DNA of 38,787 nucleotides from Bacteroidales bacterium (GTDB taxonomy: Bacteria > Bacteroidota > Bacteroidia > Bacteroidales > UBA7960), in contig PXAA01000105.1 in NCBI GenBank assembly GCA_003567205.1, positions 1 to 38,787 of the forward strand. Direction: 5' to 3'. Shown one piece after another: positions 18,919-27,028 of this stretch. Below the pieces are notes generated by a model, which saw nothing but the letters and a program-made list of their open reading frames with translations, searched no databases and was not told where the DNA came from. The position numbers and the translations under genes were made by a program. Within the stretch, counting starts at the first letter, position 1. Every line of letters begins with the position of its first letter.

Positions 18919-19800
18919 ATGATACGCTACTCCATTAACGACCTCGAAAAACTAAGCGGCATTAAAGCGCATACCTTACGCATGTGGGAGAAGCGATATA
19001 ATATTATATGTCCAAAACGCACAGACACCAATATCCGGTATTACCACGACTGTGACCTGAAAAAACTCCTGAACATCAGCACACTCAACAAGCACGGGTT
19101 CAAGATATCCAGCATAGCTCAGATGGATGAGGCCGATATCAATCAAAAGATCATTGAAATATCCGGCACCAATGGTGATTATGCAAGCATGATCAATAAC
19201 CTGGTGCTATCGATGATCGAAATAAATGAAGACACCTTTGAACATACATTAAACAATGCCATCCTGAAGCTGGGTTTTGAGAAATGCATGACCCATGTGT
19301 TGTACCCATTTCTTGAAAAAGTAGGCATCCTCTGGCTTACAGGCACAATAAATCCAGCCCAGGAACATTTTATCACTAACCTGATCCGCCAGAAACTCAT
19401 CATTGCCATCGACGGGCAGCCCCAACCCGCCTCTCCCGACGCAAAAACATTCTTGTTGTTTTTGCCCGAAAATGAATTGCATGAACTGGGTCTTTTGTTT
19501 TACAGTTTTTTAATCAGGAAAAATGGTTTCAAAGTCATTTACCTTGGACAGTCCGTACCTTTCGAAGACATCATTGAAGTCGTTAAAATCCGCAACACGG
19601 ATTATCTGTTTACTTATTTTGTGGCAGCACTCAACCGTAAAGAAATTCCTGCTTATCTTAAACGTCTTTCGCAAAGTCTCCCGGAAAAGAAGATCTTTAT
19701 AACAGGCATACAATTGCAGAACAATGAGCTTTCTGTTTCTGACAACGTAATCTCATTCTGCGATGCGGAATCCTTTAAAAAGCTCCTGACCACACTCTGA
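18919..19800 (+). CDS. MerR-family regulator with B12-binding domain (CarH/LitR type)
   Basis: A MerR winged-helix DNA-binding domain (1-70, YSINDLEKLSGIKAHTLRMWEKRY) is followed by a helical bundle (about 85-160) and a Rossmann-type cobalamin-binding domain (about 175-293). The helical bundle holds W139-x9-E149-H150, the Wx9EH signature that packs on the adenosyl group in CarH photoreceptors. The cobalamin domain holds E186-x-H188-x-x-G191, where His188 would be the lower axial cobalt ligand. In CarH the residue after the Trp (His132 in Thermus) replaces adenosyl after light; here it is Leu140. The family binds DNA as an adenosylcobalamin tetramer in the dark and lets go in light. The next gene encodes an ECF sigma factor, as in the Streptomyces litR-litS pair. 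Confidence in B12 binding is high; a light response is inference. Confidence 0.88.
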   Translation: MIRYSINDLEKLSGIKAHTLRMWEKRYNIICPKRTDTNIRYYHDCDLKKLLNISTLNKHGFKISSIAQMDEADINQKIIEISGTNGDYASMINNLVLSMIEINEDTFEHTLNNAILKLGFEKCMTHVLYPFLEKVGILWLTGTINPAQEHFITNLIRQKLIIAIDGQPQPASPDAKTFLLFLPENELHELGLLFYSFLIRKNGFKVIYLGQSVPFEDIIEVVKIRNTDYLFTYFVAALNRKEIPAYLKRLSQSLPEKKIFITGIQLQNNELSVSDNVISFCDAESFKKLLTTL

Positions 19801-20110: not shown

Positions 20111-20611
20111 ATGACAGCAGTAGAATTCAACTATAAATTACTGGGATTGCAGAAAAACCTGAAATACTTTGCCTACACCCTGACCTCGAATTACGAAGAC
20201 GCCCAGGACCTGGTACAGGAAACCTACCTGAAGGCATTGACCAACCGGGAAAAATTCACTGCAAACACCAACCTAAAGGCATGGACCTTTACCATTATGA
20301 AAAATACCTTCATCAACAACTATCGCCAGAATGTGCGCAACAACACCATTCTGGACAAAACCGATGACCTCTACTACCTGAACCTGCCAAAAGCGAGCAG
20401 CATTGGCCTGCCCGACGCTGACTATTCATTGAAAGAAATCAATAAAACCATAGGCAAGATCAGCCCTGAGCAACGTTTGCCGTTTGAGATGTACAATAAG
20501 GGTTATAAATACAAAGAAATCGCTGAAAAGCTTGACCTGAGTATCGGCACAGTGAAAAGCCGCATATTCTTTACCCGTAAAAAACTGAAGGAAGCCCTGA
20601 AGGACAATTAA
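20111..20611 (+). CDS. ECF-type RNA polymerase sigma factor
   Basis: This 166-residue sigma-70 family protein has regions 2 and 4 only. Region 2 (about 14-78) contains YFAYTLTSNYEDAQDLVQET and LKAWTFTIMKNTFINNYRQ. Region 4 (about 108-160) contains the helix-turn-helix GYKYKEIAEKLDLSIGTVKS. No anti-sigma factor is adjacent. Control is more likely transcriptional, through the palindrome-bearing promoter just upstream, than by sequestration. From memory, in many pigmented Bacteroidota a MerR/B12 gene and a sigma gene like these precede crtI and crtB; here lysC follows instead. Its target promoters cannot be told from this window. A strong terminator ends the unit. Confidence 0.92.
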   Translation: MTAVEFNYKLLGLQKNLKYFAYTLTSNYEDAQDLVQETYLKALTNREKFTANTNLKAWTFTIMKNTFINNYRQNVRNNTILDKTDDLYYLNLPKASSIGLPDADYSLKEINKTIGKISPEQRLPFEMYNKGYKYKEIAEKLDLSIGTVKSRIFFTRKKLKEALKDN

Positions 20612-23008: not shown

Positions 23009-24310
23009 CTATTGCGATTGAATCGTTGCCTCAAAAGCTTCCAGGAATTCCCTGCCGGCATGCTCGCAGGTGCTACCCACCTTATCAGTGGTAAACTCAC
23101 TATAGTAATATGGGTTCATGTTGGCAAATCCCGAATATTTAACCGGGATCCGGAGTCTTTCTCCTGCAATCAGGCTGCCCTCCCTGCCAAACCGGCCCCT
23201 GTTGGGGGGATGGTTGATAATAAACCATGAACACACACCAAATTGGTTGTATATGAGCCCCCAGGTATCCCCCGTCCGGACTGTATAGGGAAAATCATCC
23301 GGCAAGGGGGGTGGCATTTCTTCAACTGCCTCTGCCACATCTTCCGGAACATCAGGAGACACCACCGGCTCAACGGCTTCAAAAGCCCTTGGTACGTCCA
23401 CGGTCGGATGCGGATCATAAATAAAGAGCTCATAAAACATATAAGCCACCAAAATAATACCCAGGACGGCAAGTACGCTTTTCAGGATCCTTGATCTTTT
23501 TGACGAATCGGATTTTACCGGCTTTTGCGCGGCCTGTTTCTTTCCTTCCGCCTGGTGGCCTTCCGGCCACGTCCTTACGGTATTTGTCAGGTTATAAAAA
23601 CAAAGCATCACAAAAGCCGCCGCCTGCTGCCCGCTTTTATCGCCTGCATATCTGAGCACCCTCGAAACCTTGGTCTGGGCAGGCATAGGGTCTTGAAGGA
23701 TTTTTTTTATTGTCCGGGTGTGTATGTACCGGCAAACCGAACCGGCCCCCAATAAAAGTTTGTCCCCGTCTACGGGCTCAAAAGCTTCCGGGGCCGTATC
23801 AGGATGAGCCAGCGGGCCCTGTCCCATATATACGCTATCATCCTCCCCTTCTGCCTCACCCGACTCTCCCCCTTCATAATGCTGTCCGGCGGCCTGTAAA
23901 AGCGGATAGATTCTTTTCTCGGTCGAAATAAGGAGGCACACATCACCAAGCCTGGAATAATAGATCTTTTCATCATGGAACAACACACACAGGCAACTCA
24001 GGCGAACGGGCCTTTGTTCAGGATCTTTCCTGGCCAGCTGATCAATATACCCACTGGTATATATCAATGCATTTTGGGTTACTTTGGCCACATCATCCTC
24101 CGTTTCATGTTCCAGATAATACCTGATGCGTTCAATGGCCAGTCCGGTAATTTGTGCCTGTCTTTCATCAACACCTTCATTGGCAGCCAAAATAACCACA
24201 TGACCATAAGGGGTCTCAAAACTTTCCTGACGATACAGACCCTCAGACCCGGAAGGCCCCATAACCACCTCACCGGCGTACTCAAATGTGTTAAACTTCT
24301 TTGTTGTCAT
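23009..24310 (-). CDS. Membrane protein with degenerate PP2C-like domain and periplasmic LysM domain
   Basis: Residues 1-240 look like a PP2C-type phosphatase fold: YRQESFETPYGHVVILAANEG, then GLAIERIRYYLE, LSCLCVLFHDEKIYYSRLGD, and DGDKLLLGAGSV with an AAAFVMLCF strand. The metal-binding positions are lost: DGMGG is replaced by NEGVD (44-48), GDSR by GDVC (122-125), and the late D-N-x-T by KSGQQ. A basic linker leads to one transmembrane helix (about 275-297). An acidic Pro/Val-rich stalk (about 300-340) follows, then a LysM-like domain (342-390, YTVRTGDTWGLIYNQFG...IAGERLRIPV). The topology is cytoplasmic pseudo-phosphatase, membrane, peptidoglycan binding. I do not know a characterised relative. 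Its neighbours are rsmA and a dehydrogenase. Confidence 0.75.
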   Translation of the reverse strand: MTTKKFNTFEYAGEVVMGPSGSEGLYRQESFETPYGHVVILAANEGVDERQAQITGLAIERIRYYLEHETEDDVAKVTQNALIYTSGYIDQLARKDPEQRPVRLSCLCVLFHDEKIYYSRLGDVCLLISTEKRIYPLLQAAGQHYEGGESGEAEGEDDSVYMGQGPLAHPDTAPEAFEPVDGDKLLLGAGSVCRYIHTRTIKKILQDPMPAQTKVSRVLRYAGDKSGQQAAAFVMLCFYNLTNTVRTWPEGHQAEGKKQAAQKPVKSDSSKRSRILKSVLAVLGIILVAYMFYELFIYDPHPTVDVPRAFEAVEPVVSPDVPEDVAEAVEEMPPPLPDDFPYTVRTGDTWGLIYNQFGVCSWFIINHPPNRGRFGREGSLIAGERLRIPVKYSGFANMNPYYYSEFTTDKVGSTCEHAGREFLEAFEATIQSQ

Positions 24311-24375: not shown

Positions 24376-25164
24376 TTATCCATTGTTTACCCTGATATTC
24401 CGGGCAATTTCAACAAAATCAATTACATCCAGGCGTTCAGGCCTTTCTTTCATAAGGCCGGCAGGCAGTTTGCCCCATTCGACCGGTAAGTTTTTCAGGC
24501 TGTTTTTCAAAGTTTTTCTGCGCTGGTTAAAAGCGGTTTTGACCACTGTAAAAAACATGGATTCATCACATTCCAGAATAAATGAATCTTTTCTTGTGAG
24601 CCGTATTACGGTCGATTGCACTTTGGGGGGTGGCACAAAAACATGTGGCTCCACATGGAACAAAACCTTCACATCGTAAAATGCCCGGGTTAAAACACTG
24701 AGAATGCCATAGACTTTACTTCCGGGTGGTGCCGCAATGCGCAAAGCAAGTTCCTTCTGAAACATACCCACCACCTCAGGGATATATTTTCGATGATTTA
24801 ATACCCTGAATATGATCTGGGAAGAAATATTATAAGGGAAGTTTCCGATAATGGCAAATGCCTCATTCCCAAAAAGGCCATGCAGGTCATGACGGAGAAA
24901 GTCTCCTTCTATAATCCGTTCATCCTCTGACTGATAGGTGTTTTTTAGGTAGGCGATGGCATCCTTGTCAACATCCAGTCCGACCCAGCAGTACTTTTCA
25001 TTGCCTATAAGGTGTTTGCTGAGCATGCCCGTACCCGGCCCAATTTCCAGAACGTGCTTATAATTGCCGTACCCGGTAAGGCTGGCAGCGATCTTGCGTG
25101 CAATATTGGGATCTAGCAAAAAATGCTGGCCCAATGATTTTTTTGGTGATATGTATTGTGACAC
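24376..25164 (-). CDS. rsmA: 16S rRNA (A1518/A1519-N6,N6)-dimethyltransferase
   Basis: RsmA (KsgA) dimethylates two adjacent adenosines near the 3' end of 16S rRNA and acts as a late 30S assembly checkpoint. The 262 residues carry SLGQHFLLDPNIARKI (10-25), the SAM motif LEIGPGTGM (39-47), and the catalytic NFPY (108-111, NLPY in most relatives). The C-terminal rRNA-binding part contains FVPPPKVQSTVIRL and FNQRRKTLKNSL. The length is normal. It starts 13 bp after the TPR gene stop. Confidence 0.96.
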   Translation of the reverse strand: MSQYISPKKSLGQHFLLDPNIARKIAASLTGYGNYKHVLEIGPGTGMLSKHLIGNEKYCWVGLDVDKDAIAYLKNTYQSEDERIIEGDFLRHDLHGLFGNEAFAIIGNFPYNISSQIIFRVLNHRKYIPEVVGMFQKELALRIAAPPGSKVYGILSVLTRAFYDVKVLFHVEPHVFVPPPKVQSTVIRLTRKDSFILECDESMFFTVVKTAFNQRRKTLKNSLKNLPVEWGKLPAGLMKERPERLDVIDFVEIARNIRVNNG

Positions 25165-25177
25165 GATGCGGATGTTT

Positions 25178-27028
25178 TCAGTTTACCATATCCCCGCGGA
25201 GTATCCTGAAACGGTTCCGTGCCGTAATCGTATGAATGCTTCCCGGGTAATCAAGCATCAGCTGCTGGTACAGGGTCATGGCTTTATTATGTTGATTGAA
25301 ATAATGATGATGCATATCCGCCCTCTGGAATAATGCTTCATCAGCCAACAGCCCATGCGGATATTTTTCCACAATCAGGGAAAGCAAGCTGTCGGCAGAT
25401 GTATAATCGCCCCTGTGGCGCATGATTTCGGCACGTGCATAAAGGACATCGTCATTGATCTGATGATTGGGAAAACGCACACTGATTGAATCGAGCGTCA
25501 GTGTAGCATTTGCATAGTTGTTCATAAACATGTGTTGCTCCGCCCTGGCAAACAGTTGCAAAGGCTCGGGGTCCCCACCCACACCAAGATTGTCCTGGAT
25601 CCTGAGCGACAACCTCATTGCATCGTTGGCAATGAGGCGGGAAGTACCGGCCTTGAGCACATCGAGTTGTACTTTTGCCCAGTCAAATTCCCCGATGAAA
25701 TAGGTTAAACGGGCATTCTTAAATTTGGCTTCATGTGCCAGGGGGTCATCCCTGAACATACGGTCTACCTGCGAATATAACAAGGTAGCATCCCATACCT
25801 CCCCGGTCAACACCAGAATATCGGCAAGCTCAATGCGGCATTCCCCCTTGACACGGTTTGAAATATTCGGGAGGTCAAGGGTGGCTTCCAGCAATTCAAT
25901 GGCTTCATCTGTATTATGAAGATAAAACGCCCGAAGTTTGGCCAGGTTACGCACCAGTTGTACCGTCCTGGCACCCACACCCAACTGCTCAATGGCCTGC
26001 TTGTATTCCTGCTCAATATCCAGCAGGTCTTCTTCGGTGTACTGATAATCATCAATGACAGATAAAAAACGGACATTCAGGTAGCCGACAAGGGCATCCA
26101 GATAATGTGGGCTGTTTTCACCCATTTCCAGCACATAGCGGTAGGCATCGGCAGCGATCCGGTAATTCCTGTTGCCGGTACTGAGGGAGGCCACTTCCAA
26201 TACCGGTTTGCCCTCCTGTTGCAGGCGGCGGTCAAGTGCCCTGGCCTGCATAAACGCCATTCTGAAATCCTGTTGCTGAACAGACAGCCACAACAACATT
26301 TCCGAATACATGATATTTTCAGGATCGCGCTGGGTATTTGCGAGCAATACCGCCCGCAAGGCATCATTGCGCTCAAAGCCGGGGTCGTTGGCAATCATAT
26401 CCTGCAGCATGCCCCTGACCCTTTCCATTTCTTCCCGGTGCTTGTTCAGGTAGTCCAGATATTCTTCCATCATGGACCTGTATTCGCCTTTCTTTTCATA
26501 GATGCCGGCAATACGCAGGTGCAGCGGATGCTGCTCACCAAGCAGACGCCGGCCATGCATATATGTTTCCAGCGCAAGATCGAGAAATCCGCGTGTTTCA
26601 AAAGCCATGGCAAGGTCAAACACATCCTGCCTGACGGCCTTAAGGTCACCGATCAGGGCGTCCATCTGCCGGCGCGCCCTGCGGTTATTGCCTGCACGGT
26701 GATGTACCCACCCCAGGTCAACCTGGTAACGAATATCACCCGGGTGATGATCTCCCTGACGCCGCACAATCCTTTCGGCACGCCGGAATTCTTCCAGGGC
26801 CAGGAGGCTTTGCAGGTAATGGTTATAGTTCGAATGCGACGGATTGTCCTCAAACAACTCCTCATACAACACAAGGGCCTGCTCAAACCGGCCTTCCCTG
26901 AAATACTGGGCAGCCAGGCGCTCATCCGCTGTATCCTGTGCAAAAACTATTGAGGCCGACGCCAAAAGAACCAACACAGACAATGCCTTCAAAAAACACC
27001 TGTTTATTATGAATACATGTATGCCCAT
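25178..27028 (-). CDS. Secreted tetratricopeptide repeat protein
   Basis: This 616-residue protein has an N-terminal signal peptide (CFLKALSVLVLLASASIVFA, cleaved near residue 30; no lipobox Cys). The rest is almost entirely helical TPR-like repeats (YFREGRFEQALVLYEELFED near the start, LADEALFQRADMHHHYFNQH near the end). It therefore acts in the periplasm, probably as a scaffold, with an unknown partner. It starts 20 bp after serS and ends 14 bp before rsmA, so it is part of the same transcript. I recall similar TPR genes near serS in other Bacteroidota, but no function is established to my knowledge. Confidence 0.85.
   Translation of the reverse strand: MGIHVFIINRCFLKALSVLVLLASASIVFAQDTADERLAAQYFREGRFEQALVLYEELFEDNPSHSNYNHYLQSLLALEEFRRAERIVRRQGDHHPGDIRYQVDLGWVHHRAGNNRRARRQMDALIGDLKAVRQDVFDLAMAFETRGFLDLALETYMHGRRLLGEQHPLHLRIAGIYEKKGEYRSMMEEYLDYLNKHREEMERVRGMLQDMIANDPGFERNDALRAVLLANTQRDPENIMYSEMLLWLSVQQQDFRMAFMQARALDRRLQQEGKPVLEVASLSTGNRNYRIAADAYRYVLEMGENSPHYLDALVGYLNVRFLSVIDDYQYTEEDLLDIEQEYKQAIEQLGVGARTVQLVRNLAKLRAFYLHNTDEAIELLEATLDLPNISNRVKGECRIELADILVLTGEVWDATLLYSQVDRMFRDDPLAHEAKFKNARLTYFIGEFDWAKVQLDVLKAGTSRLIANDAMRLSLRIQDNLGVGGDPEPLQLFARAEQHMFMNNYANATLTLDSISVRFPNHQINDDVLYARAEIMRHRGDYTSADSLLSLIVEKYPHGLLADEALFQRADMHHHYFNQHNKAMTLYQQLMLDYPGSIHTITARNRFRILRGDMVN

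Follow-up and report, generated by a model that had tools for sequence, protein, structure and literature searches.

The gene at positions 23009–24310 of the window, that is, of the whole 38,787-nucleotide stretch of Bacteroidales DNA analysed here, encodes a 433-residue protein that is likely a membrane-bound, receptor-type pseudophosphatase and adaptor. It is a PP2C pseudophosphatase in that the fold is under selection and the catalytic ligands are lost. A preliminary description had already proposed a pseudophosphatase, and the analysis supports that reading: a PP2C fold was predicted, and the correct alignment contained no intact M1/M2 metal site.

Domain plan and PP2C fold

The gene is single-copy in its source genome (a draft of 145 contigs, about 75% complete) and is divided as follows.

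23009–24310, minus strand: whole gene, 433 residues, PP2C-like pseudophosphatase – transmembrane helix – LysM-like domain (exact open reading frame coordinates, ATG start)
23582–24310, minus strand: cytoplasmic PP2C-fold domain, residues 1–243 (AF2, Foldseek, profile against PDB)
23420–23485, minus strand: transmembrane helix, approximately residues 276–297, N-in/C-out (Kyte-Doolittle maximum of 2.42 at 279–297; AF2 helix 270–297)
23138–23296, minus strand: divergent LysM-like domain, residues 339–391 (Pfam LysM in orthologues, PDB profile, AF2 and Foldseek)
23012–23137, minus strand: family-specific C-terminal extension past LysM, residues 392–433 (AF2 helices, pLDDT about 84–96)
23231–23233, minus strand: Cys360, invariant in 38/38 aligned sequences
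23066–23068, minus strand: Cys415, likewise invariant in 38/38

Full-length orthologues share 29–54% identity with the protein. Relatives with names come from Bacteroidales or Bacteroidota metagenome-assembled genomes, many of them bearing sediment isolate names of a type that we take to indicate soda lakes; no cultivated strain from the family turned up among them.

Searched alone, the protein gave a marginal match to Pfam PP2C_2 (E 0.25) and a match to NCBIfam Stp1 (E 2.5e-4), while Pfam PP2C and PP2C_2 matched several orthologues (9e-6 and 5e-5). A single-sequence phmmer search of the PDB found no match; with a profile built from the family alignment, Staphylococcus aureus Stp1 (4.6e-13) and tPphA (1.3e-12) were recovered. 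The AF2 model of the protein had a mean pLDDT of 85, mostly above 90 in the PP2C domain, and Foldseek placed residues ~1–240 on bacterial PP2C phosphatases (best match 2pk0, E 2.5e-12), with TM-scores normalised by target of 0.70–0.83 against bacterial PP2C structures. By structure prediction and profile, then, the cytoplasmic domain has the PP2C/PPM alpha-beta-beta-alpha fold, as the preliminary description had suggested from the order of strands.

Because the single membrane helix is preceded by a Lys/Arg-rich flank (SKRSR) and followed by an acidic, Pro-rich linker, the PP2C part is placed inside and the C-terminus outside; by the positive-inside rule the protein is laid out as a bitopic receptor, N-in/C-out. 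A Pfam YukC match at residues 241–301 (E 0.07) lay below the cut-off and was set aside as an artefact of coil and membrane helix. Misassembly or chance fusion was rejected since the identical architecture recurs in several other families.

The outer part had been called a LysM domain, and the analysis points to a divergent, LysM-like domain. Pfam LysM (PF01476) reached only E 0.09 in the query, below the curated cut-off, and matched 33/37 orthologues at E<1 (best 3.4e-4). The outer-domain profile retrieved LysM proteins as its top PDB matches, all weak and none below E 0.02; modelled separately, the domain reached an AF2 pLDDT of 95 and its top Foldseek structures were mostly LysM, again weakly (E ≥ 0.14). 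It is the best-conserved part of the protein, with 64% mean column identity against 44% for the whole (alignment A4). In the C-terminal extension, N399, P400, F406, G412 and C415 are invariant in the family alignment, and Cys360 and Cys415 could form a disulfide.

Metal ligands, flap and family-specific residues

Ligand positions were read by alignment to intact relatives as reference, a reading that is alignment-dependent, above all where indels occur in the family, at DGMGG and in the flap.

24233–24235, minus strand: Y26 in place of the NED Asp (motif now GLY), lost ligand
24179–24184, minus strand: A43-N44 in place of the DGMGG Asp-Gly, lost bridging M1/M2 ligand
23942–23944, minus strand: D123, the GDSR Asp, M3-type ligand, retained
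23741–23743, minus strand: G190 in place of the SDG Asp (motif now AGS), lost M1 ligand
23624–23626, minus strand: Q229 in place of the DN Asp (motif now Q229-A230), lost M1 ligand
23825–23896, minus strand: eroded flap, residues 139–162, short, variable and partly disordered (spacing, Asp140 loss, pLDDT)
24026–24166, minus strand: helices alpha1 (49–68) and alpha2 (74–95), the PPM switch element (AF2 helices)
23660–23692, minus strand: family-specific segment D207-x-M209-P210 ... R217, candidate partner surface (near-invariant in the family, not in intact relatives)

The M1/M2 site of an active PP2C/PPM enzyme is thus replaced at Y26, A43-N44, G190 and Q229. Three of the substitutions had been described beforehand, with differing accuracy. 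The exchange of the D-N end for KSGQQ was confirmed. NEGVD does stand in for DGMGG, but the register was one residue off, the Asp and Gly aligning with A43 and N44. GDVC has indeed lost the Ser-Arg of GDSR, but its metal-binding Asp is still there as D123. The NED and SDG replacements had been missed. At the M3 site and flap, D123 is kept and Asp140 is lost (as it is throughout the family); the flap is shortened and disordered, the D123–G163 spacing being 28–45 residues in the family versus 50–52 in operon-linked phosphatases, and AF2 pLDDT falling below 50 at residues 148–155.

An active phosphatase could in principle persist on a rearranged metal site that uses D123, kept in 16/23 sequences of the window's sub-clade, together with other acids, and the domain does contain conserved E10, E69, D183 and D207. 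Against this, the bridging Asp and its Gly, both M1 Asp residues and the NED Asp are gone with no conserved acidic substitute in the same motifs, and mutating metal-coordinating Asp residues is stated to abolish PP2C activity (PMC3375153); we regard residual activity as very improbable. From the ligand pattern we infer that catalysis is absent in the window protein.

The domain also has conserved positions of its own. On alpha1/alpha2, R61, Y64, E69, Y84 and G87 are near-invariant in the family and not in intact relatives.

Graded loss and intact relatives

Ligand loss is graded within the family. The four members of genus g3 keep the NED Asp, DG, SDG/TDG and DN, have Asn for the GDSR Asp and lack the flap motif. 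Genus g5 (n=9) keeps the NED Asp with the other ligands mixed, and genus g8 (n=2) has lost most ligands. In the sub-clade formed by the window's genus g1 with g4 and g6 (n=23), all are lost except D123 in 16/23 and a single DN Asp: Asp stands at NED, DG or SDG in 0/23 and at DN in 1/23. Since g3 retains D, DG, TDG and DN, the family is not uniformly dead, and g3 members, missing just M3 and the flap, could still have activity. In the order of loss, M3 and the flap went first and the M1/M2 site followed.

A check of the changed residues in orthologues, which had been suggested beforehand, showed the ligand losses to be shared across the window's sub-clade. By a rough pairwise Nei-Gojobori estimate, dN/dS of the PP2C part was 0.13–0.20 in dead pairs versus 0.09–0.18 in other pairs, and the gene is under purifying selection. 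Because the ligands are absent from the 23-sequence sub-clade, bar that one DN Asp, and yet dN/dS is low, we read the gene as a retained pseudophosphatase and not as a decaying one. A decaying pseudogene was likewise rejected, since the frame is open across the family and dN/dS is low.

A search of the order returned relatives in many other families, with strong PP2C matches (E to 1e-16), and many of those outside the family carry a membrane helix and LysM domains (LysM E to 6e-21). In many such relatives the gene is flanked by an FHA gene and a Hanks-type kinase gene, or immediately precedes a kinase, and every ligand is kept in 18/18 operon-linked sequences. Three of these operons (G147, G161 and G044) carry the LysM variant seen in the window's family (E 1e-13 to 4.5e-12); in operon-linked L122 Pfam recognised no LysM. 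Three FHA – PP2C-TM-LysM – kinase clusters (L140, L143 and L149) contain several FHA genes and two kinases, and probably make up an intact Ser/Thr phosphosignalling system by which Bacteroidales sense the wall. A phylum-wide search found many PP2C or LysM proteins, each domain taken singly.

A tree of the PP2C domain, computed with all motif columns masked and with no root inferred, set the window's family apart by a branch supported at 100/100, suggesting a single origin of the family. As the intact state lies on the other side of this branch, loss within the family is the natural direction. Among the orphan PP2C-TM-LysM proteins of families f19, f89 and f115, which make up a clade apart, the GDSR Asp-to-Asn change recurs (7/10 orphans), so the first step of decay was taken at least twice after leaving the kinase operon. 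The orphan of family f120 is intact. Eight orphan loci (L134, L137, L141, L142, L144, L146, L148 and L150) group in a clade by themselves, and in most of them the GDSR M3 Asp has become Asn. At L147 (4421–5821, minus strand, genome G060, family f27) a PP2C-TM-LysM protein on a long branch has all M1/M2 motifs degenerate, and is apparently, from its sequence, an independent pseudophosphatase outside the window's family.

Genomic context and proposed role

The gene is present in 45/47 family genomes and in all 22 of those at least 90% complete. Two conserved neighbours lie upstream of it.

24376–25164, minus strand: rsmA (KsgA), upstream neighbour (Pfam RrnaAD, 4e-48)
25178–27028, minus strand: TPR protein with an apparent signal peptide, judged by eye (Pfam TPR families, synteny)

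In 34/34 named family contigs long enough to show it, rsmA is directly upstream, and the usual order is L27-serS-TPR-rsmA-gene-(2-hydroxyacid dehydrogenase)-aspartokinase. Elsewhere in the window, a MerR regulator with B12-binding domains, possibly a light or cobalamin sensor, adjoins an ECF sigma factor gene (18919–19800 and 20111–20611, both plus strand), a pair found beside aspartokinase in most family contigs. Ribosomal protein L27 (28426–29073, minus strand, 215 aa) has a long Lys/Ala/Pro/Thr-rich tail with repeats (12 protein letters, not shown) that resembles histone-H1-like tails.

This context bears on a passive anchor, in which the dead PP2C domain would be a structural cap and the protein, through its outer domain, would only link peptidoglycan to the inner membrane or to a neighbouring complex. 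The outer domain being the best-conserved part fits such a role, as does the lack of any co-occurring partner gene except housekeeping neighbours. A cap, however, has no need of near-invariant R61, Y64 and Y84 or D207-M209-P210, which intact relatives lack, nor of a dN/dS close to the low values of intact phosphatases, and we consider an anchor unlikely.

Statements on absent signalling genes rest on draft genomes. No Hanks kinase or FHA gene stands beside the gene in any family contig whose neighbourhood was examined, and genome G000 yielded neither. Across the family, Hanks kinases exceeded the cut-off in 13/47 genomes, mostly of genus g5, and FHA proteins were found in 2/47. A Hanks kinase was rejected as present-day partner, with 0/7 near-complete g1 genomes over the cut-off; one 86%-complete genome (G005) does have such a kinase. 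SpoIIE-type phosphatases and HATPase_c_2-type proteins occur in 47/47 family genomes; as these are universal and some genomes outside the window's lineage (mostly g5) have Hanks kinases, phosphosignalling is not gone from the family, and the idea that none is left was rejected. Two g8 genomes (G027 and G032) have 22 and 16 SpoIIE-type matches, against 1–5 in most of the family.

Given the universal SpoIIE-type and HATPase_c_2 proteins, a role beside partner-switching phosphosignalling is possible. The same proteins could favour a phosphoprotein binder, which would shield phospho-sites against other phosphatases, whether these sites belong to SpoIIE/RsbW-type partner-switching or to remaining kinases, and PHLPP2 is proposed to keep substrate binding (PMC12002173). 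The eroded flap, with its Asp lost family-wide, the missing metal-bound phosphate site and the scarcity of Hanks kinases in the window's genus, most of whose genomes lack one, speak against shielding, to which we give little credence.

We instead favour the membrane-bound pseudophosphatase and adaptor. Its ancestor would have been a Bacteroidales membrane phosphatase, with PP2C inside, one membrane helix and a LysM-like domain outside, of the kind still encoded elsewhere next to FHA and Hanks-type Ser/Thr kinase genes. The gene would then have left the kinase operon for its place behind rsmA. Flap and M3 site would have gone first and, in the lineage of the window, the M1/M2 site later, with the membrane and outer parts retained. 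In the present-day protein the outer domain would bind peptidoglycan or another envelope glycan; occupancy or clustering, relayed by the juxtamembrane helix and by alpha1/alpha2, the switch helices of the PPM fold, would shift the inner domain to another conformation or dimer state; and a cytoplasmic partner would bind or be released. Peptidoglycan state would thereby pass to a cytoplasmic partner, as had been suggested at the outset. RsmA is a candidate partner, by position only. Because living relatives show every step from working enzyme to pseudophosphatase, the protein probably senses the wall and signals through binding instead of catalysis.

Most known pseudophosphatases are eukaryotic, RssB being the clear bacterial PPM example. 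Wall-binding outside domains joined to phosphosignalling inside are familiar from PASTA kinases (PknB/PrkC) and plant LysM receptor kinases, in which the inner part has a kinase and not a phosphatase fold. PPM phosphatases are regulated through alpha1/alpha2, and the PPM domain of Escherichia coli RssB lost activity and became an adaptor while keeping this regulation (PMC12143880), a logic that by analogy would fit the window protein. Both would be bacterial PPM adaptors without activity, but RssB is a soluble protein in which a truncated PPM domain accompanies a receiver domain, whereas the window protein has the complete fold, a membrane helix and a LysM-like domain. Stp1, tPphA and PstP have fold and strand order in common with it, and PstP also has the plan of cytoplasmic PP2C, transmembrane helix and outside domain (PMC12088040); in contrast to these enzymes, the window protein lacks metal ligands and flap, and its outer domain is LysM-like, not PASTA-like. 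TAB1 and PHLPP2 are likewise PP2C pseudophosphatases that have lost metal ligands (PMC12002173), but they are eukaryotic, each keeps one M2-site metal, and neither has a comparable LysM domain or membrane helix. The same architecture, with a homologous PP2C domain, occurs in the FHA – PP2C-TM-LysM – Hanks kinase operons (G044, G050, G147, G161 and others), which differ in having all catalytic ligands intact and the kinase adjacent. LysM goes unmentioned in a survey of bacterial PP2C architectures (PMC12088040), and our literature search found no paper on a bacterial PP2C-LysM combination and no biochemical data on the family.

The family adds a membrane-bound, LysM-type bacterial pseudophosphatase and preserves a series from intact and kinase-linked through intact and orphaned, M3 and flap lost, and partly lost to fully lost. 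With these natural intermediates kept, the conversion of an enzyme into a signalling scaffold becomes directly testable by assay. The family also directs attention to the intact FHA – PP2C-TM-LysM – kinase operons in Bacteroidales, which would form a phosphosignalling system that senses the wall. More tentatively, and with the odds in our view against it, the family may exemplify a class of bacterial membrane receptor whose phosphatase module turned, via extant intermediates, into a phosphorylation-independent envelope sensor; it would have been kept family-wide after kinase and FHA loss and have acquired a new cytoplasmic partner. If that were true, envelope state and ribosome maturation could even be linked through the gene's constant position behind rsmA.
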